This document shows positions 652 through 19,577 of a stretch of 19,577 nt of DNA, piece by piece (position 1 is the stretch's first letter; each line of letters starts with the position of its first letter). This DNA is from an uncultured Clostridia bacterium. GTDB lineage: Bacteria > Bacillota > Clostridia > Peptostreptococcales > Anaerovoracaceae. Under the pieces are notes generated by a model. The model did no database searches. It was not told the DNA's origin and saw nothing but the letters and a program-made list of their open reading frames with translations. A program made the translations under genes and the position numbers. The stretch is taken from the NCBI GenBank assembly GCA_934277655.1, contig CAKQVC010000009.1, forward strand, positions 1 through 19,577, read 5' to 3'.

Positions 652-662
652 GTTTATTGCCG

Positions 663-788: not shown

Positions 789-911
789 TTTCTTTTGTTA
801 TGCACTGTGCATAGAAACGTATAAAATATGGGGATTTACAAGGAAATTTCGAAAGCCACAGTTATAAATTTTGTAGCCACCATCATTTATGTTATAATTT
901 TACATTAATTC

Positions 912-940: not shown

Positions 941-1010
941 ATGATTACATTATTTTCTATTTAAGTAATTAAATTCTAACTCCGTTCTGTACAAGCACGT
1001 AAACAGCATA

Positions 1011-1056
1011 GACAGCAAGATCGGTAATTCCATACATACCGGCTGTCGGGATTTTT
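1011..1056 (+). promoter_or_regulatory. Leader hairpin followed by a short T-run (possible attenuator)
   Basis: GACAGC (1011-1016) pairs with GCTGTC (1042-1047), and inside it CGGTA (1022-1026) pairs with TACCG (1037-1041), giving a two-step stem in the leader of the Rpn gene. It is followed by GGGATTTTTA. It lies 43 nt before the start codon and could reduce read-through or affect mRNA stability. The T-run is short, so a complete terminator is doubtful. Confidence 0.35.
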
Positions 1057-1089
1057 AGACAAAATCTTTCATGGTAGAAAGGAGAAATT

Positions 1090-2052: not shown

Positions 2053-2154
2053 AGGATTCAGCAATAATTTGTAAACAACGACAAAGCCTACTATATTTTG
2101 TGCTATAACTGCGTAGCGATAACGCCAGCAGCGCAGATGCAAAACATGCTATAT

Positions 2155-2219
2155 AAAGAGAGACCGTTTCCTTAACAGAGGGCATTTCCGCACAACTGCT
2201 AAGTCACAGTCTCTTTTTT
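2155..2219. terminator. Bidirectional terminator between convergent genes
   Basis: AAAGAGAGAC (2155-2164) pairs with GTCTCTTTTTT (2209-2219), and an inner stem is formed by CTTAACAG (2171-2178) and CTGCTAAG (2196-2203) with one mismatch, which is a G-U wobble in the minus-strand RNA. A-run and T-run flank both sides, so it could end transcripts of the Rpn gene (plus) and of the FN3 protein gene (minus). A smaller hairpin, CTGCG/CGCAG near 2109-2135, precedes it. The remaining bases of 2053-2252 hold no gene. Confidence 0.55.
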
Positions 2220-2252
2220 ACTGAATCACATATTACATTGACCCTATTCTTC

Positions 2253-3239: not shown

Positions 3240-3280
3240 TTTCGTTCCTGTTCCTTCCTGCTTTCGATTCCGATATTGTT

Positions 3281-3318
3281 ATATTTCCTGCACAATATTT
3301 CCTGCACTCTCAGAGTGC
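3281..3318. repeat. Direct repeats plus perfect palindrome upstream of the FN3 protein gene
   Basis: ATATTTCCTGCAC occurs at 3281-3293 and again at 3295-3307 (14-bp period). The second copy runs into GCACTCTCAGAGTGC (3304-3318), a perfect 7-bp inverted repeat around one central base. The block lies 42-79 bp upstream of the start codon at 3239, where a promoter and operator would be expected, and downstream of the adhesin terminator. I infer a regulator-binding region; no convincing -35/-10 pair could be fixed. Confidence 0.45.
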
Positions 3319-3332
3319 TTTGATTTCTTAAG

Positions 3333-3363
3333 AAAAGAGGAGCGGACCATGCCGCCCCCTTTT
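3333..3363 (-). terminator. Intrinsic terminator of the giant surface protein gene
   Basis: In the minus-strand RNA, AAAAGGGGGCGG pairs with CCGCTCCTCTTTT around a CATGGT loop (GC-rich stem, one bulge), followed by CTTAAG. It begins 25 nt after the stop codon of the 2666-residue protein. The symmetric A/T tails make a weak effect in the other direction possible. Confidence 0.65.
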
Positions 3364-3387
3364 CATCATAAATTTATCTGTCTGCTG

Positions 3388-6300
3388 TTATTTTTTTGCA
3401 GAATGATCTTCCTTTTTCTTTCTGCTCCATGCACCAAAGATGATGATAGCAATGACTGCAAGCAGAATGGCTGCAGATGCAACCGGATTATCTCTTACAG
3501 TATCGGTTACGGATTTTATCAGTTTATAGATCTTGCTTTCCGGCTTGATCTCACCTTGTTCTCCGCCGCCCTGGCTCTGTCCGCCGCTGTTTGTCTGGTC
3601 GAGCTGCTGGCTGTTTTCCTCATCTGAAGCATTAGAAGCCTGAGAAGGTTCCGGATCAGCTGCAATATCCTGTGCGTTTACCGGCTCCACTGAAGGAGTG
3701 ATCGATGGTTTTGGTGCTACACCCGGTGCGAAATCGGTTCCTGTACCGTTTCCGCCATGTGGTTTATCGCCCTTGCTTCCTGTCTGACCGGTTCCTGTAC
3801 CTGCGTTTCCGCCGGTGCCGGTTCCATCACCTTGCTGACCACCGGTTCCGTCACCGCCTTGCGTGCCGTCGCCTTGTCCGTCTCCGGTTCCTGTTCCGTC
3901 ACCGCTTCCCGGCTGTTCTACGGTTCCGTCTCCACTGCCGGTGCTGCCGCCGCTTCCGGATCCTGCACCTGTGGTTGTTGTACTGCTGCCGCCGCTTCCG
4001 CCTGCTGACAGGTCACGTATAATCGTTACGTCTGCTGTAGGATTTGCAGAATCAAAGAGTATCTGATTTCCGTTTTTATCCTTAATTCTTACATCGTAGC
4101 TTGTGGTCGTCGTGCTGCCGTCACTGTTCTGTACCACCTTTGGAGCCGGAATGCCGGTTACGGTAGTCGTCACTTTTTCACCTTTTTTCACGAAAACCTT
4201 ATCGCAGTCTGTAAGCCCTGCTTTTTCGCTGAGGCTGCTGGAAACAGTAGTGGTGATTGTTGCCGTAGTACCGTCAGACCAGGTGATATCCTGCTCCTTA
4301 TCCACTTCAACTTTGTAGATAATTCCATTTTCGCCGTCCTGGTTAAATACCGGACCGTTTTCGCCCTGAGTCCAGGTTCCCCTTGGTTCATGATTCTTGT
4401 CAAGTTCGTATGCAAGTTCTCCGCTGACAAATGCGGAATCCGGCATACCCTTTGCACCTTCCCGGCTGCTTTCGTAGCCGTCGGACTCTGCGTAATAGGT
4501 GTTGGATACTGTTGTATGTGTATTTCCTGCAATCGGATCGAAGGTCGGGCTTGGATTTGTTACCTTTCCGTTCCAATATGCATTTTCGATCCGGGATGTA
4601 TTGCCCGGTGAGAAAATGTTCGGAACAGAACCCATAATGCCTCCGACGTTATCTCCGCAGCTCTCGCCAAGATCTAAGGTGCCGCTGGCGTAAACATCCT
4701 TCAGTACCGCACCCTCTGTCTGGTAATCCATGTTGCTGCCGAGTATTCCGCCGACACTGTCTGCGTTTTTAGCCGTGATCGTTCCGGTAAATCCGCAGCG
4801 TTCGATCTGCATCTTACCCTGGGTTGTACCTTTGACACCGACAATACCGCCGATACCATAAGCTCCTTCTCTGCCGGCTTCCACGGATGCATTCGCCATA
4901 CAGCCGCGGATAGTACCTGCACCATATCCTAAAATGCCTCCAAGACCTCCGGCACCTTTGTTATCTGCCGGATTGTCACTGCAGCCGGCACCCTTTATCG
5001 TTGCCGCACCAACTTCGCAGTTTTCGATCACTGCAGTTCCGCCTTGTCCGGTAACACCGCCTGCGATGCCGCCGACATAGCTTCCTCCGCTGATGGATAC
5101 TCCATCTTCGATTCTGCATCCTGAGATAGTTCCATTCGGCTGGGTAACTCTGCCTACGATTCCTCCCGCAAAGTCTCCGCCTTCAAAGCTGCTTCCGGAT
5201 TTTACCCGGCAGTCTTCAATCGTTCCGCCGTTCAGAATGCTTGCAATTCCGCCGTCTACTTTACCGGTTCCGGTAACTGCAACGTCAGAAACACGACCGG
5301 ATACGTTTCCGAATAGCGGCTGTTTTGCATCTTTATAAGTAAGGGTATGTCCATTCCCCACAAAAGTACCCGCAAAATCTATTCTTGCACCGATTGCTTC
5401 CCAATCTTCTGCAAGGGTAATATCATTCCCCAGCTGGAAAGTTCTTCTGCTACAGCTGTTTCCTGCGTTTACATATGCTGCCAGAGCTTTTAATGTCTCA
5501 TAATCGCTGATGGTAATGGTATCGAATTCGCCGTTCTCGTTCGGACGCTGATTTTTGATATAGTCTTCGAAGTTCTTAACCGGATCATCGGAATCCGAGC
5601 CGCTTGCTTTCCATTTTGCAACCAGCTTCATATTCCCGCTGATTGCCGCAATCACATCAATTACTTCCTCACTTCCTTCCGGCGACCATCCGATGAACTG
5701 GTAACCGCGACCCTGCACCATGTCATGCTTAGCCTCAGGAATTTCAAGGTCTGCAATAGCAAGATTTTCGGTGTTATTCTTTACTTTTATATAGTATTCT
5801 GTGCTTTGATGACCATCAACAGCAAAGTATCCGCTATCTGCATCAAAGGTCAGTATGCATTCATCCTCTGCAAGCCATCCTGCATACAGCGTCAGATTGT
5901 TTGTGAACGTATCGTCTTTAAACTTTATGTGCGTTCCTGCATCAACGTACCATCCATTGAAGGTATAGCCGTCTCTAGTCGGTTCTGCTCCTGCCGGTAT
6001 CTGTGCTGCACTGCCTGTCTCTGCGTCAAACGCATAAACAGACTGATCTTCGACAACCTCGCCTGCAAACAGCTTTTCATCGAAAAATGCCGGATCTGTC
6101 TCATCTCCGTTTGCATTCAACGTGATGGTAACAACATCAATCTTTTCCCATCCTGCATACAGCATTAACGGATGTTCCTCTGCATCATAGCCGCTGAGGA
6201 TCTCACCATAATCAAATGGCTGCAGGCACTGGCTGTCGGTATACCATCCTGTGAAACGATAACCCTTGCGGCTTATCTTATCATTGATGACTTTTTTTGC

Positions 6301-9300
6301 AATTTCTTTGTCCAGCACTTCCTTGCTCAGACGATCACCGTTTTGATAATCAAATGAGATTTCTGCAGCCTTCTTCGGTGGTGTGATAAGAGGAAGCAGT
6401 GTCCATAGTTTTTCATCACCGGCATTGCTGCTGAGAACAACTTTCATTTCATTTCCGTAATCATTCGGCATTTTGATGAAGTTCAGATACAGATTCAGAT
6501 CTGCTCCTGCATCTATGGTCACAGTTACGGTGGATGTCAGCGTAATCTCTCCGGTTTCTTTATCCTTAATCTCTTTATCTTTAATCTTAAGACTGTCTTC
6601 CTTGATGCCGCTGCCACTTGCACTGCGAAGCACGTAGCCCTCCGGCGTGTTTACCTTAAAGGTAATTTCCTTTTCTTCCTCAGCATTCTTCGCAAAATAT
6701 TCCGTCGTTACTTTTGCCTGCCCGCTGAGTTCCATCTGCTGCGGCAAAGCTTTTGCAAACGGCAGTGTTTCCTCATCCTGAATACCTTCAATGTCATCCA
6801 GCCCTGCTGCATGAATGCTCATCTTATATACAGAGTCTGTTGTTGAAAACTCCGGATGCTGCGTTCCCTGCTTAAAGTAGTTTGTACGCTTTGAAGCGGA
6901 ATTGCCCTTATCCAGCAGGTAAGCCAGCTTACCGTTTGTTAATGTCTCTTTTTCTACCGCTTCTGCCAGTTTAGCGTCCTGCAGGCTGCTGCCTTCCTCT
7001 AATGTATTGCTGTAATAGTTCGTATTGCTATCTGTACCAACCTTTGTGAAGGTAGAGATCGCACCTGTGGTTTCTCCGTTTATATCGCCTGTGCTGAAGC
7101 AGTTTCCGATCTGCATGGCATTGCTGTAGGTGCCGCTGATCAGATCCGTACTGCTTGTTCCCAGACGTACACCGCTGATACCTGCGGCTCTTCCGTTTGT
7201 TTGCGGAGCTGTAACATTACCCACATTATATGAGTACTGAACCGGCAGTGCCCGGTCAGACCATTTACCCGGTCCCGCATTTCCGCTGTAGCTGTAATGT
7301 ACACCGATCAGTCCTCCTGCACAGTTGAAAGTTCCGGCAGAGGATTCATTGGTAATGGTTCCGGTATTGAATACAAACCGCATTTCACCATCCCTGCTGA
7401 ACAGAGAATCCGAACCTCCGTCTGCATTTCCGATAATACCTCCCGCACCGGTCAGTGACACTTTCACTCCGGAATACGTTATATTAGTATCGAGTTTTCT
7501 TTTACCGTCCAGCAGTGTGACATCTGCATGGTTTTCTGCATTTGTAATTATGATGTCCTCTTTTGTTGCAGTTGTATAATTGGAGCAGTCTGTCTGTGCA
7601 CGACCGACCATACCGCCCACAGCTATAGCTGCAGCCTGAACAGAGCAATCTTCTGCAACATTTACATTGCTGATGGTAAGATTCTTGGTACTTCTTCCGA
7701 TCAGCATACCTACATAGCCTTTTTCATTGCTTGTTTCACCGGTATCGCAGATAATGGAATTACGCATCGTCAGATTTCGGATTTCTGCATTTGCCGTCAT
7801 GCCGAAAAGGCCTGCATTCGCACTGCTTCCTAATGTGTTAAGATCCATATACATTCCGGAAATGCTGTGTCCCTGTCCATCGAAAGTACCGCTGAAGGCT
7901 GTGCTGATTCCGATCGGATTCCAGGAATCTCCATTTTTGCTGCAGATTCCGGAAAGTTCAATGTCTTTTCCCAGCTTTACTGTCTGACCTTCAAAGTTGT
8001 TGCCTGCGTTGACCATTTCTTCGAAACTTTTCATCTGACCGGCTGTATGAATGATCACTTCCGATGCGTTCTTATCATACCATCCGTCAAAAACGAAGTT
8101 TTCGTAGTTTGCTTCATCACCGTAATATACTGTGATACTGCGCTTTTCGGTTTTTACTTTCAGGTTATCTGCATCCTGCAATTCGCTCAGCTCACCGGCT
8201 ATTGCAACGATAGCCTTGGCACTGTTATCTCCGCTTGCATCCTTAATGCTGATCTTCCCTGTGAATCCCACCGGAATGTCGCAGAATTTGCTTCCGCTTT
8301 CCTGGGTTAAGGTCATCCCTTCCTGACCCTGCTTAACGGTGATCTCATATTTTTGAGCATCCTCAGTGCTGAACGGGATGAACCGCAGTTCAATGAGAGG
8401 ATAGTCTTCAAATCCGTTGAACACCGGATAATCTGCCTCCGGGTTATAGCCCCAGAAGTCTTCTCCGCCTGCTTTATTCAGGTTCTTTACCAGCTTCGGA
8501 GTTTTAAACACTGAGGCCTTTATATTCTGCGCGGTATCGGTATCTGCAGGAAGTACTTCTGCACCCTTGGATTCATCCAGATTATACACAGCCTGCACGG
8601 TATTTTTTCCTTTTCCGTCTTGCTTACCGATTGAAGAAGCTGTAGAATCCCCATAGGCGAAGCATCCCTTGATGCTTGCTTCTGCAGTTGCCTGCGTTCC
8701 TGTTTTCTGCCAGCCCACCAGGGTACCCACATTCGTTGTTCCTGTTACCGTTCCTGTGCTGTAACAGTTCAGTACTTCTGCAAGATTATTGCCGGTATTG
8801 ACAAATAGGTATCCCACCAGACCGCCGCTGGCATTTCCGGTGATCTTTCCTTTATTGATACTTTTTTCGACTTTGTTTACATAGGTATTGGCAAGCCCGT
8901 TAAACTGACCCACCAGTCCGCCAACATAATTTTTTCCGGTGGCATTGACAGTACCGTTATTTAAACAGTCGCTCATCCACCCGGTGAAGGTTCCGGCAAT
9001 GCCGCCGGCTACATTTCCTTTGGATGTAATGCTGCCTTCGTTTGTGCAGCCGCTGATGGACGGTGCTTTCAGATTGCTTTTCACGGAATAAGTTGCTGCA
9101 ATACCTGCCGCATTACCCCCTGTTGCGGTTGCTGTAATATTGCCATAATTATGACAATCTGTAATTACCCCTACGCTGCTGGAAGGTACATTGGCAAGGA
9201 TACCTGCAGCTTTCGTGCTTGCACTGACCTGTCCATAGTTTTTACAGCCTTCGATCCTGCAGTCTCCTGCAGTTACTGCTGAGATACCTGCCGCAATCTG

Positions 9301-11388
9301 CGCAGTACTGGTTATATTTACCCGGTTCACGCAATCCGTAATGGTACTCTTTATGATGCTGGCAGCAAGGCCTGCCCCATACTGACCCTTTGTTTTTACC
9401 TCTCCGGATACGGTCAGATTGCGAATCTGCGCATCCTCCACATAGCTGAAAAATGCCTGATATTGGGTACTGTCCGTTGCTTTATCAATCTTGTATGTCA
9501 CCTGGTGATCGGCTCCATCGAATGAGCCTTTAAATGGTGTAGTCTTAGCGGCACCGATCGGTTCCCAGGTTTCTGCGCTTACATCAACGTCCTGCCCGAG
9601 TTTTACCGTCTGTCCGCTGAAGTCGTTTCCTGCATTAACCAACTGAGCAAAGCCCCACAGTTCCCCCGGTGTTCTGAGTGTAAACGCAGACTCCTGCTTT
9701 GAGTACCAGAGTATATTCGGTTCCTGTTCATAGGCTTCCATATCACCATACTGCAGGGTGATATTCTTGCCATTTACCTTCAGAGTAAACTCCAGGATAT
9801 CCTTTTTTTCTTCATTGGATTCGAATCTTCCCTGTCCGAAACCCGGTTCACCGTTTCCGATCTGGGTAATGGTGCAGACCGGATAATTTTCATCTGTACC
9901 CTGAACAGTTACCTTAATTTCACTTCCGTCTGTTACATAATATTCCTGTGCATTGACTTTACCCAGTGGGTTTTCAGTTTCAGCGGCAGCTGTAACCGGA
10001 TTTTCATCTGCCTTATATTCGTAAGGCAGAAGTTCTACCTTATAAAAGGCTTCGCTTCCGGCTTCTGCCCACTGCAGTTTCCCATCCTTAAGGGTATATG
10101 CCGGAGTTTCATCCGCCTGATTCAGTGTCCAGGCTGTCTTCCAGCTGTGGATTTCTTCTTTCGGCACATAGGTTGTTGCATTTACTGCATTCCGGAATGC
10201 CGATACAAAGCTTCGTTTATCATAGGTAACGCCAGTATAACTAAAAAGCAAGTCGCATGTTTCATCTGCACCATAGCATCCATGGACTTCCTTAAAGTAT
10301 TTTAATTGTGCCCTTGATAGCTGCCGTACGTAGGTTGCACTGGCTGCAGTGATCTTTCCTTCGTTGAAGCAATTGATCATTGTTTGTGCTTCCTTGGCAT
10401 AGTTACCCACATATGCGATCATACCTGCCGCATATGAGCTGCTTCCCACTACACTGATGTTTCCGTAGTTGGCACAATTTCTTAAGGTTGCGATTCCGGA
10501 AGAACCAACAGTTGCCACAATTCCTCCTGCAGAGTTATTCGAATTTAATGTTGATGTAACGGTCACATCACATTTGTTGATCACATAACTCAGTTCACTG
10601 CTGCCGGCAAGATGGCCGACTACAGGTGAAATACCGCCTCCGGTTGAAACTGCACCTGCAAACTGTGTAATGTTCATGGTACCTTCCACAGTCAGGTTCT
10701 TGATCACCGCATTCTCAATGCAGCCAAACAGTGCGACAGAATGACTTTCATAGGCTTTCTCACTGTCGTTTACTGCAATAGTTACGGTGTTTCCCTGTCC
10801 GTCAAAGATCCCTGAAAATTTAGAATCCATAACGCCTGCTTTCGTATTCATGAGACCTACCGGCTGTAACTCTAAGCTGCTCAGGTCCACATTCTGCGTC
10901 AGGACTACAGTCTTTCCTGCCAGAGTGTTTCCTGCATTGACAGAGGCTGCGAAGGCTTCCCAGTCTGCAGCATCCTCAATTGCATAGTAGCTGAAACTGT
11001 CTCCGCTTGCAGCTGCGGCTTCTTCTCCTTCGCCGGTTACGATACCTGTTTTCCAGGTACCTGTGCCTGCATCAAAGGCATCTGCCATCTTCACTGCTTG
11101 CTGTCCTTCATAGATCATGCGCATTCCCGCATGTGGCAGAATCTGAGGCAGACTGGAATCTGCCAGGTTCTTTGCTGTTTCCAACAGTTCCTCTGCCGAC
11201 TTTTCTGCATTTTCCTTCGCCGGCTCCTGGGATTCATCGTCCTGAATCATTTCCTGTGCTAGCTGCGTTTCGCCTGTATCAACCTTCTCTGCCGGCTGCA
11301 GCTCTGTATCCGCAAAGGCAAATCCCATCTGCGAAAAGACCATCGCCAGGCAAAGAAGCAGGCAAAAAAGCTTGTTGCTTTTTTTCAA
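3388..11388 (-). CDS. Giant GLUG / InlB B-repeat surface protein, membrane anchored
   Basis: The product has 2666 residues and is probably a surface adhesin or scaffold. A signal peptide (1-26, MKKSNKLFCLLLCL.. ending FAFA) is followed by four beta-helix blocks, each opening with a VNAGN..GQTVKLG-type segment (near residues 148, 586, 1128 and 1974) and containing about twenty GLUG-type loops such as AGGIVG, VGGLVG and GGIIGN. Three InlB-type (Listeria-Bacteroides) repeats lie at about 1670-1930 (FTGWY..LYAGW pattern). A Gly/Thr/Asp low-complexity linker spans about 2466-2550, a Ser/Gln-rich stretch follows, then one membrane helix (about 2637-2655) and a KKKEDHSAKK tail. There is no LPXTG, so anchoring looks like plain membrane insertion. 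The start is TTG at 11386-11388 with GAGAGGAAG about 5 nt upstream. It follows the beta-propeller gene by 135 bp. The ligand is unknown. Confidence 0.9.
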   Translation of the reverse strand: MKKSNKLFCLLLCLAMVFSQMGFAFADTELQPAEKVDTGETQLAQEMIQDDESQEPAKENAEKSAEELLETAKNLADSSLPQILPHAGMRMIYEGQQAVKMADAFDAGTGTWKTGIVTGEGEEAAAASGDSFSYYAIEDAADWEAFAASVNAGNTLAGKTVVLTQNVDLSSLELQPVGLMNTKAGVMDSKFSGIFDGQGNTVTIAVNDSEKAYESHSVALFGCIENAVIKNLTVEGTMNITQFAGAVSTGGGISPVVGHLAGSSELSYVINKCDVTVTSTLNSNNSAGGIVATVGSSGIATLRNCANYGNISVVGSSSYAAGMIAYVGNYAKEAQTMINCFNEGKITAASATYVRQLSRAQLKYFKEVHGCYGADETCDLLFSYTGVTYDKRSFVSAFRNAVNATTYVPKEEIHSWKTAWTLNQADETPAYTLKDGKLQWAEAGSEAFYKVELLPYEYKADENPVTAAAETENPLGKVNAQEYYVTDGSEIKVTVQGTDENYPVCTITQIGNGEPGFGQGRFESNEEKKDILEFTLKVNGKNITLQYGDMEAYEQEPNILWYSKQESAFTLRTPGELWGFAQLVNAGNDFSGQTVKLGQDVDVSAETWEPIGAAKTTPFKGSFDGADHQVTYKIDKATDSTQYQAFFSYVEDAQIRNLTVSGEVKTKGQYGAGLAASIIKSTITDCVNRVNITSTAQIAAGISAVTAGDCRIEGCKNYGQVSASTKAAGILANVPSSSVGVITDCHNYGNITATATGGNAAGIAATYSVKSNLKAPSISGCTNEGSITSKGNVAGGIAGTFTGWMSDCLNNGTVNATGKNYVGGLVGQFNGLANTYVNKVEKSINKGKITGNASGGLVGYLFVNTGNNLAEVLNCYSTGTVTGTTNVGTLVGWQKTGTQATAEASIKGCFAYGDSTASSIGKQDGKGKNTVQAVYNLDESKGAEVLPADTDTAQNIKASVFKTPKLVKNLNKAGGEDFWGYNPEADYPVFNGFEDYPLIELRFIPFSTEDAQKYEITVKQGQEGMTLTQESGSKFCDIPVGFTGKISIKDASGDNSAKAIVAIAGELSELQDADNLKVKTEKRSITVYYGDEANYENFVFDGWYDKNASEVIIHTAGQMKSFEEMVNAGNNFEGQTVKLGKDIELSGICSKNGDSWNPIGISTAFSGTFDGQGHSISGMYMDLNTLGSSANAGLFGMTANAEIRNLTMRNSIICDTGETSNEKGYVGMLIGRSTKNLTISNVNVAEDCSVQAAAIAVGGMVGRAQTDCSNYTTATKEDIIITNAENHADVTLLDGKRKLDTNITYSGVKVSLTGAGGIIGNADGGSDSLFSRDGEMRFVFNTGTITNESSAGTFNCAGGLIGVHYSYSGNAGPGKWSDRALPVQYSYNVGNVTAPQTNGRAAGISGVRLGTSSTDLISGTYSNAMQIGNCFSTGDINGETTGAISTFTKVGTDSNTNYYSNTLEEGSSLQDAKLAEAVEKETLTNGKLAYLLDKGNSASKRTNYFKQGTQHPEFSTTDSVYKMSIHAAGLDDIEGIQDEETLPFAKALPQQMELSGQAKVTTEYFAKNAEEEKEITFKVNTPEGYVLRSASGSGIKEDSLKIKDKEIKDKETGEITLTSTVTVTIDAGADLNLYLNFIKMPNDYGNEMKVVLSSNAGDEKLWTLLPLITPPKKAAEISFDYQNGDRLSKEVLDKEIAKKVINDKISRKGYRFTGWYTDSQCLQPFDYGEILSGYDAEEHPLMLYAGWEKIDVVTITLNANGDETDPAFFDEKLFAGEVVEDQSVYAFDAETGSAAQIPAGAEPTRDGYTFNGWYVDAGTHIKFKDDTFTNNLTLYAGWLAEDECILTFDADSGYFAVDGHQSTEYYIKVKNNTENLAIADLEIPEAKHDMVQGRGYQFIGWSPEGSEEVIDVIAAISGNMKLVAKWKASGSDSDDPVKNFEDYIKNQRPNENGEFDTITISDYETLKALAAYVNAGNSCSRRTFQLGNDITLAEDWEAIGARIDFAGTFVGNGHTLTYKDAKQPLFGNVSGRVSDVAVTGTGKVDGGIASILNGGTIEDCRVKSGSSFEGGDFAGGIVGRVTQPNGTISGCRIEDGVSISGGSYVGGIAGGVTGQGGTAVIENCEVGAATIKGAGCSDNPADNKGAGGLGGILGYGAGTIRGCMANASVEAGREGAYGIGGIVGVKGTTQGKMQIERCGFTGTITAKNADSVGGILGSNMDYQTEGAVLKDVYASGTLDLGESCGDNVGGIMGSVPNIFSPGNTSRIENAYWNGKVTNPSPTFDPIAGNTHTTVSNTYYAESDGYESSREGAKGMPDSAFVSGELAYELDKNHEPRGTWTQGENGPVFNQDGENGIIYKVEVDKEQDITWSDGTTATITTTVSSSLSEKAGLTDCDKVFVKKGEKVTTTVTGIPAPKVVQNSDGSTTTTSYDVRIKDKNGNQILFDSANPTADVTIIRDLSAGGSGGSSTTTTGAGSGSGGSTGSGDGTVEQPGSGDGTGTGDGQGDGTQGGDGTGGQQGDGTGTGGNAGTGTGQTGSKGDKPHGGNGTGTDFAPGVAPKPSITPSVEPVNAQDIAADPEPSQASNASDEENSQQLDQTNSGGQSQGGGEQGEIKPESKIYKLIKSVTDTVRDNPVASAAILLAVIAIIIFGAWSRKKKEDHSAKK
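3740..3990 (-). repeat. Gly/Thr/Asp low-complexity spacer in the surface protein
   Basis: Degenerate GDGTG / GTGTGG-type units run for about 80 residues (near 2466-2550), between the last folded region and the membrane anchor. Such spacers usually lift surface domains through the wall. The DNA is correspondingly repetitive (ACCGGTTCC-like units on the plus strand), so length may differ between strains. Confidence 0.7.
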
Positions 11389-11431
11389 TGTTTGCTTCCT
11401 CTCTTTCTATAAATAATATAAAATTAGTTTT

Positions 11432-11460
11432 ATTGAAAGAATCTCCTGCTTTCAGGTCAA
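11432..11460 (-). promoter_or_regulatory. Possible promoter for the giant surface protein gene
   Basis: On the minus strand TTGACC (11455-11460) and TTCAAT (11432-11437) are separated by exactly 17 bp. The -35 matches consensus at five of six positions and the -10 at four of six. It would give a leader of about 37 nt. The 135-bp gap before the gene is much longer than the others upstream in the cluster, which fits a secondary promoter; no terminator was seen in this gap. Confidence 0.4.
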
Positions 11461-11523
11461 TTCCGTCTGTCATATTCTTTGGTTCGATTTTTTATTTTGA
11501 TATTACGTTATAGCTGCACCCTT

Positions 11524-13527
11524 TTATTGTGCTTTCACGTTCTTTACCGAAGACCACTTACTGTAATATTTTGTCCGATTGATGCTGCGGTAAGCCCTTA
11601 TCTTATAATATGCGGTCTGTCCCTTGCTCAGGCTTTTATCGGTGTAGGTCACCGATGCCGCCTTGCTGATGGTTTTTAGTGACTTGAAGCCGCTGCTTTT
11701 TTTAGAAGACCGGTAAATCTGGTAACCCGATGCTCCGCTGACCTTCTTCCAGCTGAGTACCGCCTTCTTCTTACCTACCTTAGCGCTCAGGGACGGTTTG
11801 GCCGATGCGATCTGCTTTTTTGCTTTTTGATTTACTGCACTGGTCCCGGCATTGTTCATCTTGATATCGACAGCTGCGTAGAGGGTATCCAGCTGCTCTT
11901 CATCATTGTACATCTGGTTTGCATAGTAGATGAGCACATCGCTGTCACCGGCTTTCAGCGGATCTGCACTGTACTGCACATACTGACTGATATCCATGCG
12001 TTTCCCGTTTGTCAGAACTGCCTCCACCTTCATGCCGCTCGGATTGAAGGTATCTCCAATGTCATAGGTAGTCTGCGTCGGCATCTTGCTGACAGTGATT
12101 TTTTTGATCTTGCTGCCCAGTGCCATCATCTGTGCGGAATCGTTTTTAAAATAAATCGTACCGTATTCATCTACGATCGGGCTGCAGATGGCATATTGTG
12201 CCTGGGCTCCCTGAGGGGTAAACAGTACAGGTGCACAAAGCCATTCAGTTCCCTTTGCATCGGTCTCCACCACCGCATCCACCGGTTTGGTCAGACCCGG
12301 TTTATCTTTAATATAGCGGAGCTTACCCGGAGTCATGTTTTCAAAGAAATAGATGTAATTGTAACCATCATCTGCACCGGTATATACAAGACCACTGGTC
12401 TGAGGGTATCCCATCGTATAAGCACGATAAGCAATTTTCCATTCCTTCAGGTCGATGACAGTGATATTATGTCCATTATACTTGGCAAACTGTCCTTCAC
12501 CGGAAACACCCACATATGCCCTGCCATTATAAACCGCAGGGGTTGAAGTGCTCATGCCGCCCAGTGCCAGTTCCTTCAGTTCGGTAACCTTTCCTTTCGA
12601 GGAAACCTTCGCTGCATAAAAGCTGCCGCCTTTTGATGTAAAGTAGTATTGATCTGTGATCTTATCATAAGACACATTGCTGCGAATATCCGCATTCAAA
12701 CCGGTTTTTTTGTCCAGTTCCGCACCGGTCTTCGGATCCAGCGAAAGCAGCTTTGATGTCTGGGAGGTATAGGCGCTGTCCCCGTCATCCGTTCCCACCA
12801 ACAAAAAGTTTTTGCAGACATAGGCACCTGCCCAGTAAAATCCACCCTTTGAGGTGTAGGTCCACTCTGCCTTTTTGGCTTCGTTGGTCTTTTTCGTATT
12901 TTCATCCTTAACGCTGATGCAGACAAAGTTTGCATCACGTGTTTCAGAATTCCAAAATCCGGTATAAACGCAGCCGTCATAATAGGTGATCGGACAGTTC
13001 GGCTGTCCCCCCAGCTTATCGGTATAGACCCACAGGGATTTCAGTGTTTTCGCATCAAAGGCCTGAACGATGCCCCCGGCTATTCCCACAAAGATCTTGC
13101 CATCCGCATAAGTCGGCGGTACGATGCTGAAGCTTGAATTGTTTACCATCGCACCGGAAGCAACCCTCTCGCCGCTGACCGCATCCATCTTATTGATGGT
13201 CTTTCCCTGGTTATAATATAGATAACCGTTCACTAAAATCGGGGAACCTACCGCCTGCGCACCATACCCGGTGCCGGATTTGGTCGCCCACAGCAGGGCA
13301 GCATTGGAAGCTCCGGTCGGAACCGGACTGCCTGTTACTGCATTGTGCATGTTGTTTCCGCGAAAATTCGTCCAGTCCGTCTTGATGACCTTCCCCGGAT
13401 CAGGGTTTTTGCATGCCGTTTCCACAAGATCTGCTGCATAGCCGGTTGCTGTGGTGCCAAGAACCAGGCTCAGCATCAGTACGATTACCAGTAGGCGCTG
13501 CATGCCGGAACGCTTCTCTTTTTTCAT
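11524..13527 (-). CDS. Secreted PQQ-type beta-propeller protein with Ig-like and FN3 domains
   Basis: The product has 667 residues. A signal peptide (about 1-31, ending TGYA) precedes a beta-propeller (about 50-470) with repeated blades of the type VGSPILVNGYLYY, PPTYADGKIFVG, PTITYYDGCVYTG-like and STPAVYNGRAYVG. This is the BamB/PQQ-like fold. Cofactor binding is not evident and a structural or binding role is more likely. A bacterial Ig-like (Big_3-type) domain follows (about 475-560, ..TTYDIGDTFNPSGMKVEA..), then an FN3 domain (about 576-667) ending YYKIRAYRSI..YYSKWSSVKN. The ATG has GAGGAGG about 10 nt upstream. It starts 40 bp after the transglutaminase-like gene, so it is in the same transcript. 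The FN3 end matches that of the 2253-3239 protein. The substrate is unknown. Confidence 0.85.
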   Translation of the reverse strand: MKKEKRSGMQRLLVIVLMLSLVLGTTATGYAADLVETACKNPDPGKVIKTDWTNFRGNNMHNAVTGSPVPTGASNAALLWATKSGTGYGAQAVGSPILVNGYLYYNQGKTINKMDAVSGERVASGAMVNNSSFSIVPPTYADGKIFVGIAGGIVQAFDAKTLKSLWVYTDKLGGQPNCPITYYDGCVYTGFWNSETRDANFVCISVKDENTKKTNEAKKAEWTYTSKGGFYWAGAYVCKNFLLVGTDDGDSAYTSQTSKLLSLDPKTGAELDKKTGLNADIRSNVSYDKITDQYYFTSKGGSFYAAKVSSKGKVTELKELALGGMSTSTPAVYNGRAYVGVSGEGQFAKYNGHNITVIDLKEWKIAYRAYTMGYPQTSGLVYTGADDGYNYIYFFENMTPGKLRYIKDKPGLTKPVDAVVETDAKGTEWLCAPVLFTPQGAQAQYAICSPIVDEYGTIYFKNDSAQMMALGSKIKKITVSKMPTQTTYDIGDTFNPSGMKVEAVLTNGKRMDISQYVQYSADPLKAGDSDVLIYYANQMYNDEEQLDTLYAAVDIKMNNAGTSAVNQKAKKQIASAKPSLSAKVGKKKAVLSWKKVSGASGYQIYRSSKKSSGFKSLKTISKAASVTYTDKSLSKGQTAYYKIRAYRSINRTKYYSKWSSVKNVKAQ

Positions 13528-13567
13528 ATAAGTCTCCTCCTCGTCATTTTTTCATTCTGTCATTTAT

Positions 13568-16500
13568 CTATCGCATATCGAAAAGCCTTGACTCTCCGTT
13601 TTTCATTCTTTCGTAAGCTGTCAGTGCGTAAGCTGCCTGCTCGGTTGCCATCTGATTGGTATCACCATCTGCGGTATGTGCAAACCCGCCGTCTTCCTGC
13701 TGGAATGCCAGCAGTGCGTTTAGTGTTCCTTCAAAGCGTGCATCCGCATCTACGTCGATCCCCAGTGATGAAAGTGCCGTGATCACCTGAGCACAACTTT
13801 CGGCATTTTTGCTTCCCCAGCTTTCAAATCCGCCATCGTCCGCTTTTTTCTCTGCAAGACAGTCTATAGCTTTATCTGCCGCTTGCTTCACTTTTTTTCT
13901 TGTTGTTTCCGTGATTTCTCCGCAGAGCTGTGTATCGCCGCAGACATAGGGTGCCATAGCTGTCAGTGCCATAGCTGTCAGATCCACATCTGCTTTTTCT
14001 CCGCTCAGAGTCCATCCCCCATCCGGAGTCTGGTGCTTAAGGATATAGGCAAGCAATGCTTCCCGACTGGTCTTCCGAAAATCTGTATCTTGATCTTTCA
14101 AGCCAGCTGTTCCTTCTGATTTTTTATTTTCTGTCTTCTTTACTGCTTCTGCCGGGACCTCCGGGATTTTATATCCGCCGCAGTCATAGGCGATCAATGC
14201 CCAGATTGGACCGTTGATTCCCTGCCTGCAGACGTTCTCCATATTCGTCAGCTTTTCCAGCAGGTTATAGCCTGCCACATCTTCCGGATCCAGTCCCGCT
14301 GCCGTCCAGCCAAGAATGATTCGTGCATATTCGGTATATTTGTATCCGGTGGCAGTGTTCAGAACACCACCGGCCTTGCGAACTATTTTTTCTGTATTTT
14401 TTTGATAGCACCCAAGAAAGTTCTCCGGCAGATCATAGTCGCCCCGGGTAAGTGCAAGCACAGCCCACTCTCCACCGACAGAGTTGCTTGTGGGCTCAGT
14501 TACGGTTTCACAGATATAGTCCTGCGCCTTTTTTAGTGCGCTTTGGTAAGGTTCTTCATCTTTGGCATCACATCCGGTAAACAGGAGACAAAAGACGATC
14601 AGCAGGCAAAGCATTCCCTTTACTCCGATTCCGGATCTTTTGACTCTGGATCTTTTTTCCGGTCTTCGCCTTTTGGTCTGACGGTAATATTCCCATACCT
14701 TCTGATATTTTTCTTCACTGATCTCGTGCATACTATAACGTGCCTCCAGATAAATTTCTTCGGCTTCCTTTCGCATCCGACTTCGATCATCGACGATGCA
14801 GGATTTATTCTTATGATGTCCCTCTTCCTTACGCTCTCGCTTCCGTATAAAATACATCAAAGCCAGCACCGCTTTTCGTCGATCAGCAGACCTCACGTCT
14901 TTTCGCCGTGGTTTTTGTCTGGTCGCTGTCCTGCTTTTTCTTAATCTGCGGTAAATCTGTCGTATCACCACGGCCAGCAGGATCAGCAGGAAAAGGAGCA
15001 GGATCGTCGGCACCCAGTAATTAACCTCGGACTCTGTCGTTACGATCCGGTTTGTCTTTTTGTCTTCCGGCTTTTCCGCTTTTTTCTCAGGCTGCGGTTC
15101 CTCCCATGCGTTCATATGTATACTTCCGGCACTTCGCATCAACCCGATATAGGTAGGTGTGGTTTCAAACGGAAGCCAACCGATTCCATCTTCGTAATAC
15201 TCTGCCCAGCAATGGGCTTCTGCCGCTGTAACTGTAATTTCTTCTCCGGCTTTTGCTTTCTCTGCCATCTTATCGGTGATCAGATATCCTTCTGCAAATC
15301 TGGCGGGAATGCCATAATAACGAAATGCCATCACGGCAGCTGCCGCAAAGTGCTTATCATATCCGGACTGTCTTTCCAGAAAGCCGGTAACAAAATCCTT
15401 TTCCGTGCTGTCTGAAACGGATTCGTCATACTTCATGCCGCCTAAAGTCTCCAAAATTGCCGTTTTCGCTTCTCCGCTGTTCTTAATTTTTTCGGCGTCC
15501 GGGAAAATTTCCTCAATTGCGTTTCGGCATGCTTGCGGGATTTCGCTGTCATAACGTAATACATAATCTCGATAATTTGTTTCTGCCTGCCGGTATTCGG
15601 TCTGATCGGCCTCGTTGGAAGTCGAAAGTCCGTCGAGGATCTGACCATAGGAGTCTATACTATAGGGCAGTGCTGTCACCGTATACTGCTGCAGCTTTTT
15701 TCTCTCAGGCAGGAACCCTCCGCCCAGCAGCGATGTTCCCTTTGCCTGTATGCTCTGCGCTTCATAGGGTAGATATAGATATCGGCGGCTGGTACCGGTA
15801 TTGACAACGCGGATCACGTTGACATCCTCTTTTTCCGTTGTTATGCCGGCGGACTGCCCTGCATCAGCCATCATAGTCCTGCTGTCGAAATTCATCTTGC
15901 CCAGCTGGTAAAAAAGGGCATTCTCTATATCCACTGTCTCACTGCTCATCGTGCCGGAGTCTTCTGCACTTTTCCAGCCTTCCTTCGTATAGATATCTGC
16001 AGTATATCCCCTAAGATAATAAGGCTGTGGATTGCTCATGGTCACTTTCAACACAGCCGGATCTTTATTCTCCCCTTCAGATTCTGATGCTTTGCTGCGC
16101 TGCGCTGCTGCATCGCTTTCAAAGTTTCCAAAGGTCATGCCGCTTTCTTCACCACCATAAAGGAAAGCTTCTGCTTTCACAGCCAACTTTTCCCTCACAC
16201 CGGCAAGGGTATCCTCAGCTCCGGAGGCGGTAAGAACACCGCCGGAGAAAAGCCCTGTCAGAAGCGTAAATGCCAGAAAGCCGGCTGCTTTTTTTCGATT
16301 TTTTTCAAAGGCTATAAACACCCACGCTGCAGCTGCCAATGCGAAAAAAATGCCTGGTGCCTTTACCTCTGCAGATGGCATGAACACCTGTAAAAGAATT
16401 ACTGGTACGGAAAACCCGGCAAAAGTCAAAAAAAGTGCCGTGCCTCCTCTGCGCATCGCCACGAAGACTCCCAAAGCACAAATGCCGGCCGCCAAAAGTA

Positions 16501-16750
16501 TGATCACTGCAGGAAGCAGCATATTTCCGCTTTCGGTATAAACCCGGTGTACCTCAGCATTATACATCGTCCGTTTTTGCAGATATAAGTTTAAAATACT
16601 GCCAAAGCTTCCGGCATGCCAGACTTTGTACAAGCTGCCGCAGGCTGTTTCCAACAGACTGCATATCCATGCAATACCGCAGACTGCTGCAAAAAGGCCG
16701 TACCCAATGGCTTGTCGGTTAAAAGTTGTAGATTTTTGTTGTTTCATCAT
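13568..16750 (-). CDS. Membrane transglutaminase-like protein fused to a lipoprotein-like alpha/alpha-toroid domain
   Basis: The reading frame encodes about 1060 residues (numbering from the TTG at 16753). Membrane helices lie near 16-36, 78-99, 106-125, 134-149 and 157-175. An extracytoplasmic region follows, with a transglutaminase core at about 455-535 (YYGIPARFAEGY, H514, GIGWLPFETTP). The usual catalytic Cys position (GxCxHFA) reads G-Y-D466-K-H-F-A, so enzyme activity is doubtful. After another helix (580-600) and a basic cytoplasmic stretch comes MLCLLIVFCLLFTGC (714-728), a complete lipoprotein signal with lipobox Cys728, and then a prenyltransferase/squalene-cyclase-type toroid (735-1050) with QTPDGGW, ADDGGF and QEDGGF repeats. 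DVDL (922-925) replaces the DxDD of cyclases. The upstream DUF58 gene overlaps the 5' end. TTG at 16753, ATG at 16750 and ATG at 16747 are all possible starts; I chose ATG 16750. Confidence 0.82.
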   Translation of the reverse strand: MMKQQKSTTFNRQAIGYGLFAAVCGIAWICSLLETACGSLYKVWHAGSFGSILNLYLQKRTMYNAEVHRVYTESGNMLLPAVIILLAAGICALGVFVAMRRGGTALFLTFAGFSVPVILLQVFMPSAEVKAPGIFFALAAAAWVFIAFEKNRKKAAGFLAFTLLTGLFSGGVLTASGAEDTLAGVREKLAVKAEAFLYGGEESGMTFGNFESDAAAQRSKASESEGENKDPAVLKVTMSNPQPYYLRGYTADIYTKEGWKSAEDSGTMSSETVDIENALFYQLGKMNFDSRTMMADAGQSAGITTEKEDVNVIRVVNTGTSRRYLYLPYEAQSIQAKGTSLLGGGFLPERKKLQQYTVTALPYSIDSYGQILDGLSTSNEADQTEYRQAETNYRDYVLRYDSEIPQACRNAIEEIFPDAEKIKNSGEAKTAILETLGGMKYDESVSDSTEKDFVTGFLERQSGYDKHFAAAAVMAFRYYGIPARFAEGYLITDKMAEKAKAGEEITVTAAEAHCWAEYYEDGIGWLPFETTPTYIGLMRSAGSIHMNAWEEPQPEKKAEKPEDKKTNRIVTTESEVNYWVPTILLLFLLILLAVVIRQIYRRLRKSRTATRQKPRRKDVRSADRRKAVLALMYFIRKRERKEEGHHKNKSCIVDDRSRMRKEAEEIYLEARYSMHEISEEKYQKVWEYYRQTKRRRPEKRSRVKRSGIGVKGMLCLLIVFCLLFTGCDAKDEEPYQSALKKAQDYICETVTEPTSNSVGGEWAVLALTRGDYDLPENFLGCYQKNTEKIVRKAGGVLNTATGYKYTEYARIILGWTAAGLDPEDVAGYNLLEKLTNMENVCRQGINGPIWALIAYDCGGYKIPEVPAEAVKKTENKKSEGTAGLKDQDTDFRKTSREALLAYILKHQTPDGGWTLSGEKADVDLTAMALTAMAPYVCGDTQLCGEITETTRKKVKQAADKAIDCLAEKKADDGGFESWGSKNAESCAQVITALSSLGIDVDADARFEGTLNALLAFQQEDGGFAHTADGDTNQMATEQAAYALTAYERMKNGESRLFDMR
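14612..14626 (-). promoter_or_regulatory. Possible internal ribosome site and start for the toroid lipoprotein
   Basis: GGAG (14623-14626) lies 8 nt before an in-frame ATG (14612-14614), codon 714 of the fused gene. Initiation here would produce a separate 348-residue lipoprotein beginning with MLCLLIVFCLLFTGC. Basic residues precede this Met but do not follow it, which makes the separate signal peptide atypical. A former gene boundary is the simplest explanation; current use as a start is uncertain. Confidence 0.35.
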
Positions 16751-17807
16751 CAATTATTATCACTTGTGAGAATGTTTCTTCTCCGTAGCTCTGTAAAAAA
16801 CGTTCTTCTATCGTTTTTCCATCTTCCAGGGTTGTACTGAGCAGACGTCCCAGTTCCTGAATCAAATCCTCAGCCGTATGGATCTCAACGATCTGCAGGC
16901 TTTGGGTTTCCCTGCTCCAGCATCCGATGCAGTGGGAGATTCCCCGGTCAGTTAAGTTTTCAGATAATGCGATCAGCCTTGCACAGGCCTTTTCTATCGC
17001 ATCCTGTGGAGTTCCTTTTTTCGTTTCTCTGCCTGTCTTTAAGGTCCGGCTCTTGCCGGTTTCCGGCGAATAACTGTTTTCCAAAAGTAAAAGCAGGTCT
17101 TTGCCCACCGGCAAGCTGCCCTCCCGGACGATCCAGCTGTCGCCCCGGCTGCTGCGTTTCCAGTGTATACTTCGCAGACTGTCGCCACTGCGATATTCCC
17201 GCAGCTCATGGGTCTGGCTTAAATCCGGTCCGGGACGATCTTCTGCATAGGCATCGCTGTTTTGATCATATTGCTCCGCTATCTCCGGAAGCAGCGGTAC
17301 TTTCACCGTTTCCGGCAGGAGCAGGCATGAAAGTCTCTTCTCCCTGCTTTCCTTTTTATCACCGATCCGGAAGGAAACAAGACCTAACAGATCGGTTATC
17401 CGCATAGACTCCGGTTTAATTTGTAATTTCCCTGCATGACTTTCGTTTATCCAAAGCTGCAGATCATTTGAGTCTCCTCCTCTGCCTGCCAGCACTCCTT
17501 GCCCTCGCAGTCTTCCGGTTTCTCCGGTCAGCTGATTCTGAACTTCCATCTGCAGGCATAACTTAACCGGGATCAAACCCTTATAATCTGTACGGATCTT
17601 CAAGCAGGCCCGGTTCTCCCCGTTCCTGCTCCCCTTGAGAGTGCTGTCTGTTTTCAGGTGTCTTGCGGCAATGCCTGCCTGCATTGCCAAAACCATGGCC
17701 GCCAGTATTGAATCTGTAAGGAGAATACCGGCAAATGTCAGTTCCCCAATCAGCCATAAGACCGCCAGCATTACAGTCCACAGCAAGAAGAATAGTCTGT
17801 TTTTCAT
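16719..17807 (-). CDS. DUF58 family protein
   Basis: The protein has 362 residues. Two N-terminal membrane helices (about 5-22 and 24-46) are followed by a beta-rich region containing ITDLLGLVSF (137-146), the usual segment before the DUF58 core. The signature is ELREYRSGDSLRSIHWK (201-217) ending WIVREG. The C-terminal part corresponds to a von Willebrand A-like fold, but the DxSxS metal motif reads ENSYS (243-247), so metal binding may be lost. DUF58 proteins commonly work with MoxR ATPases and transglutaminase-like proteins at the membrane. The ATG lies 11 bp after the MoxR stop; the only ribosome-site candidate (AGGAA) overlaps that stop codon, which suggests translational coupling. Its 3' end overlaps the next gene by about 30 bp. 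Family assignment is firm; its molecular task is not known. Confidence 0.9.
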   Translation of the reverse strand: MKNRLFFLLWTVMLAVLWLIGELTFAGILLTDSILAAMVLAMQAGIAARHLKTDSTLKGSRNGENRACLKIRTDYKGLIPVKLCLQMEVQNQLTGETGRLRGQGVLAGRGGDSNDLQLWINESHAGKLQIKPESMRITDLLGLVSFRIGDKKESREKRLSCLLLPETVKVPLLPEIAEQYDQNSDAYAEDRPGPDLSQTHELREYRSGDSLRSIHWKRSSRGDSWIVREGSLPVGKDLLLLLENSYSPETGKSRTLKTGRETKKGTPQDAIEKACARLIALSENLTDRGISHCIGCWSRETQSLQIVEIHTAEDLIQELGRLLSTTLEDGKTIEERFLQSYGEETFSQVIIIDDETTKIYNF

Positions 17808-17818
17808 ATCGTAATTTC

Positions 17819-18775
17819 CTATCTCGCGGAAGTTTCCTCTGCCTGTACACTCTCCAGGATCTCCTGCAAAATCTGTCGGTCACTTTTTTCTGCGATCTTG
17901 CCTTTGGCGCTGACCAGTACGCGATGTGCGCAGACATCAGCAAAAACTTCCCTTACATCTTCCGGTATCACATAATCCCGTTCTCTGACAAAAGCACAGG
18001 CTTTCGCCATATGATGCAGAGCTATCACACCTCGGGGGCTGATTCCCAGTGAAAGCATTTCATGCCTTCCTGAGGCTTCGGTCAGGCGTCCCAGATACCG
18101 CAGGATCTCCTCACTGGTATATACGCTGCGTACCGCCTTCTGCATATCCAGCACCTCTTCCCGGGTAAGAACCTGTTTCATTCTTTCCAGCGGATTTTCA
18201 CTCTGCCGGTCTCTTAGGATTTCCACCAGCATATCCAGTGACGGCTGTCCGATAGAAAGTCGTACTAAAAAGCGATCCATCTGTGCCTGAGGCAGCAGCT
18301 GTGTTCCCGCAGATCCTGCCGGATTCTGTGTGGCAATGACAAGAAAAGGTTTCTGTACCTCGTAGCTGGTTCCGTCCACAGTAACCTGCTTTTCTTCCAT
18401 AACCTCCAAAAGTGCAGCCTGAGTTCTGCTTGCCGTCCGGTTGATCTCATCTGCCAAAAGCAGACTGCACTGCAGCACCGGTCCTTCCTGGAATCGAAAG
18501 GTTCCGCTTTGCCGATCGTACATCGTAAATCCTGTAATATCTGATGGCATAATGTCTGGTGTAAACTGGATCCGTTGATACGGCAGTCCCATGGCACGGC
18601 TAAAGGCCAGTGCCATTGTGGTTTTCCCGACGCCGGGTACATCCTCCAGCAGGATATTTCCTTCTGCCAAAATTGCCATCAGAATCCGTTCTATTACAGC
18701 ATCTTTGCCCCGGATGACCTTGTTGATCTCTTCTAAAATCTCTTTGACCTTCTCGTTCATCTTTCCCTTTACCAT
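17819..18775 (-). CDS. MoxR-family AAA+ ATPase
   Basis: The protein has 318 residues, the full length for the family. It has Walker A DVPGVGKT (45-52), Walker B LLLADE (105-110) followed by INRTASRTQAALLEVMEE, the sensor-1 segment ATQNP (148-152), QAQMDRF (163-169) and a lid region with SPRGVIALHHMAKA. All catalytic elements look intact. MoxR ATPases act as chaperone-like remodelling enzymes that help mature partner protein complexes, often with VWA or DUF58 proteins. The start codon overlaps the stop of the upstream DUF4430 gene by 7 bp and the DUF58 gene starts 11 bp downstream, so all three are co-transcribed and probably translationally coupled. A second Met (residue 6) is an alternative start. 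Confidence 0.95.
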   Translation of the reverse strand: MVKGKMNEKVKEILEEINKVIRGKDAVIERILMAILAEGNILLEDVPGVGKTTMALAFSRAMGLPYQRIQFTPDIMPSDITGFTMYDRQSGTFRFQEGPVLQCSLLLADEINRTASRTQAALLEVMEEKQVTVDGTSYEVQKPFLVIATQNPAGSAGTQLLPQAQMDRFLVRLSIGQPSLDMLVEILRDRQSENPLERMKQVLTREEVLDMQKAVRSVYTSEEILRYLGRLTEASGRHEMLSLGISPRGVIALHHMAKACAFVRERDYVIPEDVREVFADVCAHRVLVSAKGKIAEKSDRQILQEILESVQAEETSAR

Positions 18776-19577
18776 TCCTTTCCGTAGCTTTCCAGCACGC
18801 CATAGGTTCCTGCCATGGTTTCATAACCGCCGATATCCTTGCCATATGCCAGCGTAAATCGGATGCGTACCACATCTCCGTCCTGTACATAGGCTTTGTT
18901 GAAGCCGTAAGAGCTGTACAGACCATTAATGGAATACATCCATCCGGAGCCCTGGCAGAAGTCAAATTCTCCCAGATTGCTCAGGCTCTCGTATCCTTTT
19001 TCATCAAACAGGAGCTCATCTTTTTTTATCTTGGCAGCCAGATCTGATGGAATCTTATAATCCTTTATCATATTCTTCTTATGTATCTTAGCTAAATAAA
19101 ATCCATCGTCCAGGTCGCCTGTATAGGAGTAGCTGAAGCCTTCCGCCTTGAGAAATTCATCCACTACATGGGAAAGGGATACGCCTGACTCCACGTCGAT
19201 CTTCTTTGGTCTGACCAGATAAGGAATACCGATCGTTCCTGCTTCCAGGCTGATGGTAATTGTTCCTTTTCCCGTCTGATAGAAGACCGTATACTCCTTG
19301 CGGACAGTATACTGATACTCATCGGTGATCTTGACGCTGATGGTATTCGCCCCGCTGCGCAGCTGGGTGCTGTAGGTCTGGCGGCTCATCTCCCCGATAT
19401 AATCTGCCGGTTCACCGTTGACCATCACTTCCATATCGCTGTAGGCCAGAGCCTTTCCCCGGTAATCCGTTATCCATACATCAAAATTCAGGGTTTCCTG
19501 ATTATAGATACCGTTTTCCTTCAGATTGGTCCGGATTAGCGGCTGTTTTTCAGCAGGTGTACTGCCTTCAGGCCGTA
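18769..19577 (-). CDS. DUF4430 (transcobalamin C-terminal-like) surface protein, 5' end outside window
   Basis: The frame is open from the right edge; 268 residues up to the stop are visible. A beta-sandwich segment comes first (ETLNFDVWITDYRGKALAYS..MEVMVNGEPA, then TQLRSGANTISVKITDE), resembling a bacterial Ig/cadherin-like domain. The DUF4430 domain follows with the diagnostic GSGWMYSINGLYSSYGFNKA, VQDGDVVRIRFTLAYGKDIGG. DUF4430 (Pfam PF14478) is related to the C-terminal beta domain of transcobalamin and intrinsic factor. A secretion signal must lie outside the window. The stop overlaps the MoxR start by 7 bp, so this gene leads into the MoxR-DUF58-transglutaminase unit. Ligand binding is inferred only from the family. 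An internal ATG at 19432-19434 is not needed as a start because the upstream sequence continues the same domain. Confidence 0.88.
   Translation of the reverse strand, partial: RPEGSTPAEKQPLIRTNLKENGIYNQETLNFDVWITDYRGKALAYSDMEVMVNGEPADYIGEMSRQTYSTQLRSGANTISVKITDEYQYTVRKEYTVFYQTGKGTITISLEAGTIGIPYLVRPKKIDVESGVSLSHVVDEFLKAEGFSYSYTGDLDDGFYLAKIHKKNMIKDYKIPSDLAAKIKKDELLFDEKGYESLSNLGEFDFCQGSGWMYSINGLYSSYGFNKAYVQDGDVVRIRFTLAYGKDIGGYETMAGTYGVLESYGKEW

Follow-up and report, generated by a model that had tools for sequence, protein, structure and literature searches.

How bacteria without an outer membrane collect cobamides before importing them is, to our knowledge, poorly understood. A row of genes from an uncultured Clostridia bacterium of the family Anaerovoracaceae raises this question. 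The stretch of DNA analysed here (contig CAKQVC010000009.1, positions 1 to 19,577; "the window" denotes all 19,577 nucleotides) encodes on its minus strand a protein ending in a DUF4430 domain, a MoxR-type ATPase, a DUF58 protein and a transglutaminase-like (TG-like) protein continued by an alpha/alpha toroid. An initial annotation had seen in the toroid and the DUF4430 domain the two halves of a transcobalamin-like architecture, and in the locus a possible surface capture system for a cobamide or similar ligand; this reading is partly supported by the genomic context of relatives. We consider it likely that the window contains the 3′ portion of an operon for capturing cobamides at the surface and feeding them to an energy-coupling factor (ECF) importer, and it is from genomic context alone that we infer a cobamide as the ligand.

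Cobalamin riboswitches and ECF-like genes at related loci

The window edge cuts off the 5′ end of the operon, whose upstream end thus lies outside; no cobalamin riboswitch was found within the window, nor did Pfam scans of eight window proteins name a transport gene. The initial annotation had proposed to look for such elements farther along the locus, and when this check was run in relatives both ECF-like genes and cobalamin riboswitches (Rfam RF00174) exceeded chance. A P0001-like protein is encoded in 17 of 148 genomes of the same family, and ten of these 17 have an RF00174 match above the cut-off on the same strand and no more than 10 kb away (upstream in 9/17), where 0.53 would be expected from each genome's riboswitch density (Poisson-binomial P = 3e-12, under uniform placement). 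The genomes G001 and G002 had suggested this test; without both, the count is 8 of 15.

Genes for DUF4430, MoxR, DUF58, TG-like, toroid and PQQ proteins recur together in the relatives, in varying order. The full MoxR–DUF58–TG triad is present in 11 of the 17 gene maps, a toroid in 12 and ECF-like genes in 8, and some of the contigs are short, so that absences are weak. Toroid labels on DUF4430 proteins in these maps were discarded because they arose from fused reference proteins; the label of G081 was discarded too, as toroid-only references do not confirm it. Two maps are the clearest. G072 has a riboswitch followed by one unassigned open reading frame (ORF), MoxR, DUF58, TG, toroid, DUF4430, PQQ, DUF4430, EcfT-like and EcfA genes; G089 has a riboswitch, EcfT-like, EcfA, EcfS and DUF4430 genes, and then a second riboswitch followed by MoxR, DUF58, TG, toroid, DUF4430 and PQQ. 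A riboswitch and two genes precede the row DUF4430–MoxR–DUF58–fused TG and toroid–PQQ in G002.

The whole set is carried by Emergencia timonensis. One of its contigs, 76 kb long, has seven RF00174 matches, each on the strand of the operon, along with at least three DUF4430 proteins, two toroids and ECF-like genes for T, AA and S. Its row reads DUF4430–MoxR–DUF58–TG–PQQ–toroid, and the nearest riboswitch upstream of this row is about 6.5 kb off, the gap being filled by a 106-amino-acid (aa) ORF, an opposing 221-aa ORF and a gene for a 1699-aa surface-type protein. Two further genes of this organism lie next to cobalamin riboswitches: one of the Diphthami_syn_2 ATP-pyrophosphatase type (L001:18130-18837) between two of them, and one with three matches to the homing-endonuclease-associated HNH_repeat (L083:8206-9249, minus strand) between a riboswitch and an EcfT-like gene.

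The association was also examined from the side of the toroid. Scanning genome contigs with a toroid alignment gave at least 557 stretches that encode a relative, of which the best 80 loci were kept and their ORFs clustered by similarity; the loci differ in length, so the gene counts are lower bounds. The commonest neighbour clusters are double ABC ATPases, EcfT-like membrane proteins, short DUF4430 proteins and S components. The representative of the ATPase cluster passes the NCBIfam cut-off for ECF ATPases (TIGR04520), the EcfT-like cluster has a CbiQ match at or over the cut-off in two of seven members tested, and the S components match general ECF S families only. A member of the ECF-like ATPase or EcfT-like cluster, or of both, occurs in at least 66 of the 80 loci, an ATPase of 450 aa or more together with an EcfT-like protein in at least 54, a short DUF4430 protein in at least 63 and a separate S component in at least 32. 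Rfam finds ten cobalamin riboswitches in five of the seven loci submitted to it. A covariance model built from 14 Rfam riboswitch matches, whose E-values are rough, matches 43 of the 80 loci at E ≤ 1e-4, or 38 of 74 outside the six counted as training, and 56 of its 59 matches lie on the toroid's strand. Beside one ECF-like set, an ORF (L007:15877-16692) has a weak CbiR-like match (41.5 bits against a cut-off of 105), a lead only; similar ORFs occur in 5 of the 80 loci, and CbiR relates to cobamide remodelling.

The gene row in the window

The features that make up the proposed system are as follows.

18769..19575, minus: 3′ part of the DUF4430 protein (268 aa), start beyond the window
18853..18987, minus: DUF4430 match, residues 197-241, resembling the C-terminal part of transcobalamin (PF14478, E = 2.6e-07)
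17819..18775, minus: MoxR-type AAA+ ATPase, 318 aa (AAA_3 and AAA_lid_2)
16719..17807, minus: DUF58 protein, 362 aa (PF01882)
13568..16753, minus: single ORF with TG-like part and toroid, 1061 aa
15164..15472, minus: Transglut_core domain, residues 428-530 (PF01841, E = 6e-16)
15356..15358, minus: Asp466, at the Cys position of TgpA (6g49) by alignment
14576..14632, minus: hydrophobic segment ending in lipobox-like LFTGC
14623..14626, minus: GGAG, possible ribosome-binding site for an internal ATG at 14614
13568..14614, minus: alpha/alpha toroid, 348 aa counted from the internal ATG
13967..13990, minus: DVDLTAMA segment

From the DUF4430 gene through the TG–toroid gene, each ORF either overlaps the next or is separated from it by 11 bases. 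The partial protein at the window edge does end in a DUF4430 domain (31.4 bits against a cut-off of 23.8), and Pfam matches for all three members confirm the MoxR–DUF58–transglutaminase triad, as three adjacent genes in this order. Similarity of the MoxR protein to chelatase subunits stays below the cut-off and is a lead at most. The DUF4430 proteins of close relatives begin with a hydrophobic segment and an acidic linker.

Recombinase-like sequences appear near both halves in relatives: the DUF4430 tail of P0144, from a close relative, is joined to a serine-recombinase domain (PF00239), and in E. timonensis a gene that looks recombinase-like by eye (L001:11173-11814) follows the toroid. These possibly reflect phase variation or an assembly chimera.

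A toroid in frame with the TG-like protein

The third gene on from DUF4430 contains an alpha/alpha toroid, as the initial annotation had it (PF00432; the 348-aa piece scores 29.7 bits, the cut-off being 26.5). Both domains of transcobalamin-like carriers, a toroid and a DUF4430/SLBB domain, are hence present, the latter on a separate protein. The toroid had been taken for an ORF of its own; this part of the claim did not stand, because the TG-like part and the toroid form one frame with no stop between them. The claim that the two halves lie on separate polypeptides holds, but the toroid shares its chain with the TG-like protein. The internal ATG has its GGAG upstream with eight bases between, so that translation from this start could additionally yield a free toroid lipoprotein. 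Relatives often have a gene of its own for the toroid; G002, like the window, has the TG-like part and the toroid in one ORF, of 971 aa.

By hydropathy the protein begins with five N-terminal segments, after which come the TG-like core and a sixth segment; a strongly basic stretch then leads to a seventh segment and the toroid. The seventh segment carries the LFTGC, in line with the lipoprotein signal noted earlier, and the positive-inside rule would place both the TG-like core and the toroid outside the membrane.

An AlphaFold2 model of the toroid has a mean predicted local distance difference test score (pLDDT) of 91.2 and a predicted template modelling score (pTM) of 0.90, and its fold is compatible with that of cobalamin carriers. 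The best matches by sequence and by fold are terpene and squalene cyclases, with the highest structural Z (24) to drimenyl diphosphate synthase. At E values up to 10, the toroid profile found cyclases, macroglobulin-type chains and the like in the PDB, and no transcobalamin. PF01122, which we take to be the Pfam family of transcobalamin-like cobalamin carriers, was not listed at E ≤ 10 in Pfam scans of 27 toroids, in which filters drop weak matches.

Could the toroid then be an exported single-domain enzyme of the terpene cyclase type? The VDLTAMA segment reported earlier is present, and across 27 aligned toroid proteins D209, D211, T213, M215, A216 and L217 are invariant. It overlaps the position of the DxDD motif, which we take to be that of type II terpene cyclases and which here reads DVDL, and D-x-D-[LMI] in the relatives. 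The initial annotation had the acid of this motif lost; this is true of the last residue only, and two of the three acidic residues remain, which together with the Z score speaks for a cyclase. Against this, the aligned family has L, M or I in place of the last Asp, and no isoprenoid gene occurs among the annotated recurrent neighbour clusters, a dedicated search not having been made. We regard a cyclase as very improbable.

The same cyclase-like matches would also suit surface capture of another large cofactor or of a lipid or polyprenyl-like ligand, with the riboswitch link reflecting gene clustering and not the ligand. The toroid's homologues are very numerous, and Burroughs et al. (2007; PMC1796856) allow for a distinct metabolite in archaea. 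However, the association with riboswitches and ECF-like genes is strong and strand-specific, the sequence of the toroid protein points to membrane attachment or export, and one residue of DxDD is missing; a ligand of this other kind seems unlikely to us.

Loss of the catalytic cysteine

Asp466 of the window aligns with the Cys of TgpA, and the window also lacks the Asp of TgpA's VDPT stretch; the catalytic His is retained as His514 in AHCW and is invariant in 12 rows. Because the catalytic Cys is replaced by Asp, the TG-like protein would appear to be a membrane scaffold rather than a transglutaminase. Fourteen of 15 aligned TG-like proteins lack the Cys, the exception (L005) lying on the strand opposite its toroid. 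The Cys is absent in all 19 TG-like proteins that share a strand with a toroid or DUF4430 homologue, which have D, S or N instead; it is present in 12 of 14 unlinked proteins and absent in two. Whether a Cys is present was judged by eye, from the residue at the aligned or motif position. The linked set comprises these 19 and L005, a few of them without a visible MoxR or DUF58 gene at contig or locus ends; it was gathered mostly through toroid or DUF4430 context, and the unlinked set through TG similarity or, for G072 contig 8, Transglut_core.

As a control, ten of the same genomes gave 32 Transglut_core matches, 30 of them with loci, of which ten are the operon copies. Among the other 20, two lack the Cys (G148 contig 22 and G072 contig 8) and all of the other 18 retain it. 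The protein of G148 contig 22 adjoins a toroid and riboswitches; that of G072 contig 8 does not. The latter belongs to a second Cys-lacking MoxR–DUF58–TG triad (L144), near ABC-type ATPase genes and without a toroid, and perhaps represents the same machinery with another ligand. A toroid match near this triad was dropped, as the matched part is an immunoglobulin (Ig)/fn3-like tail.

In a class-wide sample the TG alignment matched in 99 of 291 genomes, and among the best 30 TG loci 25 keep the Cys and five do not. Gene context was fetched for 15 of the 99 genomes, 12-20 kb each. All 12 contexts with a Cys-bearing protein are without a toroid, DUF4430, EcfT or EcfS match (E ≤ 1e-8). In the three without Cys, G434 and G095 have both the toroid and the DUF4430 half and G233 has neither. 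A riboswitch over the cut-off occurs within 10 kb of the TG gene only in G095 among the 15; G434 has one about 17 kb from the TG gene on the same contig.

These data bear on a more conventional explanation, an ordinary MoxR–DUF58–transglutaminase envelope module that acts on wall proteins and has the toroid as one of its substrates. A triad beside a surface protein is a known arrangement, described from bifidobacteria in PMC6803598, and the window does encode a large surface-type protein. Such a module is hard to reconcile with the Cys lost in the window and in 19 of 19 linked proteins, or with the lack of toroid, DUF4430, EcfT and EcfS matches in the 12-20 kb around all 12 mapped Cys-bearing proteins, and we hold it to be quite unlikely.

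In a tree, the linked Cys-lacking forms group together with weak basal support, and loss of the Cys is possibly a single ancestral event kept across many lineages. The Fisher test of Cys loss against linkage (20 linked including L005, 14 unlinked) gives P = 2e-06, a value that overstates independence because the sequences are related and group in the tree. In 7 of the 17 same-family relatives, the same strand bears no riboswitch above the cut-off at a distance of up to 10 kb; homologous loci without a cobamide link, which the initial annotation had named as a ground for abandoning its reading, are nevertheless not the overall picture.

Other features of the window

Read from right to left, the minus-strand row of DUF4430, MoxR, DUF58 and TG–toroid genes continues with a PQQ_2/Big_3 gene and one for a 2666-aa protein, whose position suggests that it also belongs to the operon and which bears out the earlier mention of large surface proteins.

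11524..13527, minus: PQQ_2 (BamB-like) protein with Big_3 and an fn3-like tail, adjoining the triad in relatives too
3388..11388, minus: repeat-rich surface-type protein, 2666 aa (List_Bact_rpt)
1090-2052, plus, opposite to the operon: Rpn-family PD-(D/E)XK nuclease/putative transposase (PF12784)

Inverted repeats in the operon amount to seven weak pairs only. The PQQ protein and a 328-aa protein (2253-3239) have similar C-terminal stretches with YYKIRxYR, and a toroid of E. timonensis (L082:12479-13771) ends in an fn3 domain; perhaps these represent a shared surface-targeting tail.

Proposed mechanism

How might such an operon work? Outside the membrane, the toroid and the DUF4430 domain, sitting on separate membrane-attached chains, would close on a corrinoid like the two domains of transcobalamin. 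A DUF4430 lipoprotein and the ECF S component would then take over the captured corrinoid for import. With the TG-like protein as membrane scaffold, MoxR and DUF58, on the cytoplasmic side, would put the complex together or reset it at the cost of ATP, and plentiful B12 would shut the operon down through the riboswitches. We are least sure of what MoxR, DUF58 and the TG-like domain do, and of the ligand, which may be cobalamin itself, a precursor or a different cobamide.

We suggest only tentatively that MoxR, DUF58 and the catalytically dead TG-like protein form an ATP-driven machine that opens and closes a split transcobalamin-like receptor for cobamides; that one receptor half is, in the window, covalently part of this machine is a similarly doubtful proposal. 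If true, MoxR systems would have a new role, and a Gram-positive-type surface would carry an energised receptor for small molecules. A split membrane-attached carrier with its own AAA+ ATPase would also give MoxR–DUF58 systems a concrete candidate substrate. E. timonensis, which carries the whole set, is a named organism in which to test it, and the consistent loss of the TG Cys offers a searchable and testable sequence signature.

Comparison with known systems

Scavenging of B12 by toroid and DUF4430 domains was already predicted in 2007, and the core idea is not new. Burroughs et al. describe bacterial toroid–SLBB fusions with CbiO/CbiQ-type neighbours, predict that they scavenge B12 or its precursors, and propose that animals acquired transcobalamin-like proteins from such bacteria (PMC1796856). 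The window is of the kind they predicted: the two domains, the surface location and, in relatives, the ECF-type neighbours are shared. It differs in that the toroid is fused to a TG-like protein. The same source remarks that carriers are usually without key B12 enzymes; in contrast, both E. timonensis and G002 encode CbiF, so the system may serve the salvage of particular cobamides rather than the rescue of auxotrophs. A term search of the main text of PMC1796856 gave no mention of MoxR, DUF58, transglutaminase or riboswitch, and neither the triad as part of B12 scavenging nor the loss of the TG Cys was found among the entries listed in the literature searched, which largely excludes subscription journals. 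What we did not find in print, on this previously predicted theme, is thus the link to the triad and the loss of the Cys.

The order MoxR–DUF58–transglutaminase is known from the bifidobacterial PFNA cluster (PMC6803598). The window shares this order, with no kinase gene seen in it and the catalytic Cys lost, and unlike the PFNA cluster its relatives link the triad to a toroid, DUF4430, ECF-like genes and cobalamin riboswitches. For TgpA (6g49), the TG-like core can be aligned over residues 450-535, with Asp466 of the window in place of its Cys. ECF-CbrT has been shown experimentally to import cobalamin and cobinamide (PMC5997447); the relatives' S component, which has no counterpart in the window, matches general ECF S families only. 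Finally, in transcobalamin, intrinsic factor and haptocorrin, animals fuse both domains, whereas the window has them on separate membrane-attached chains.
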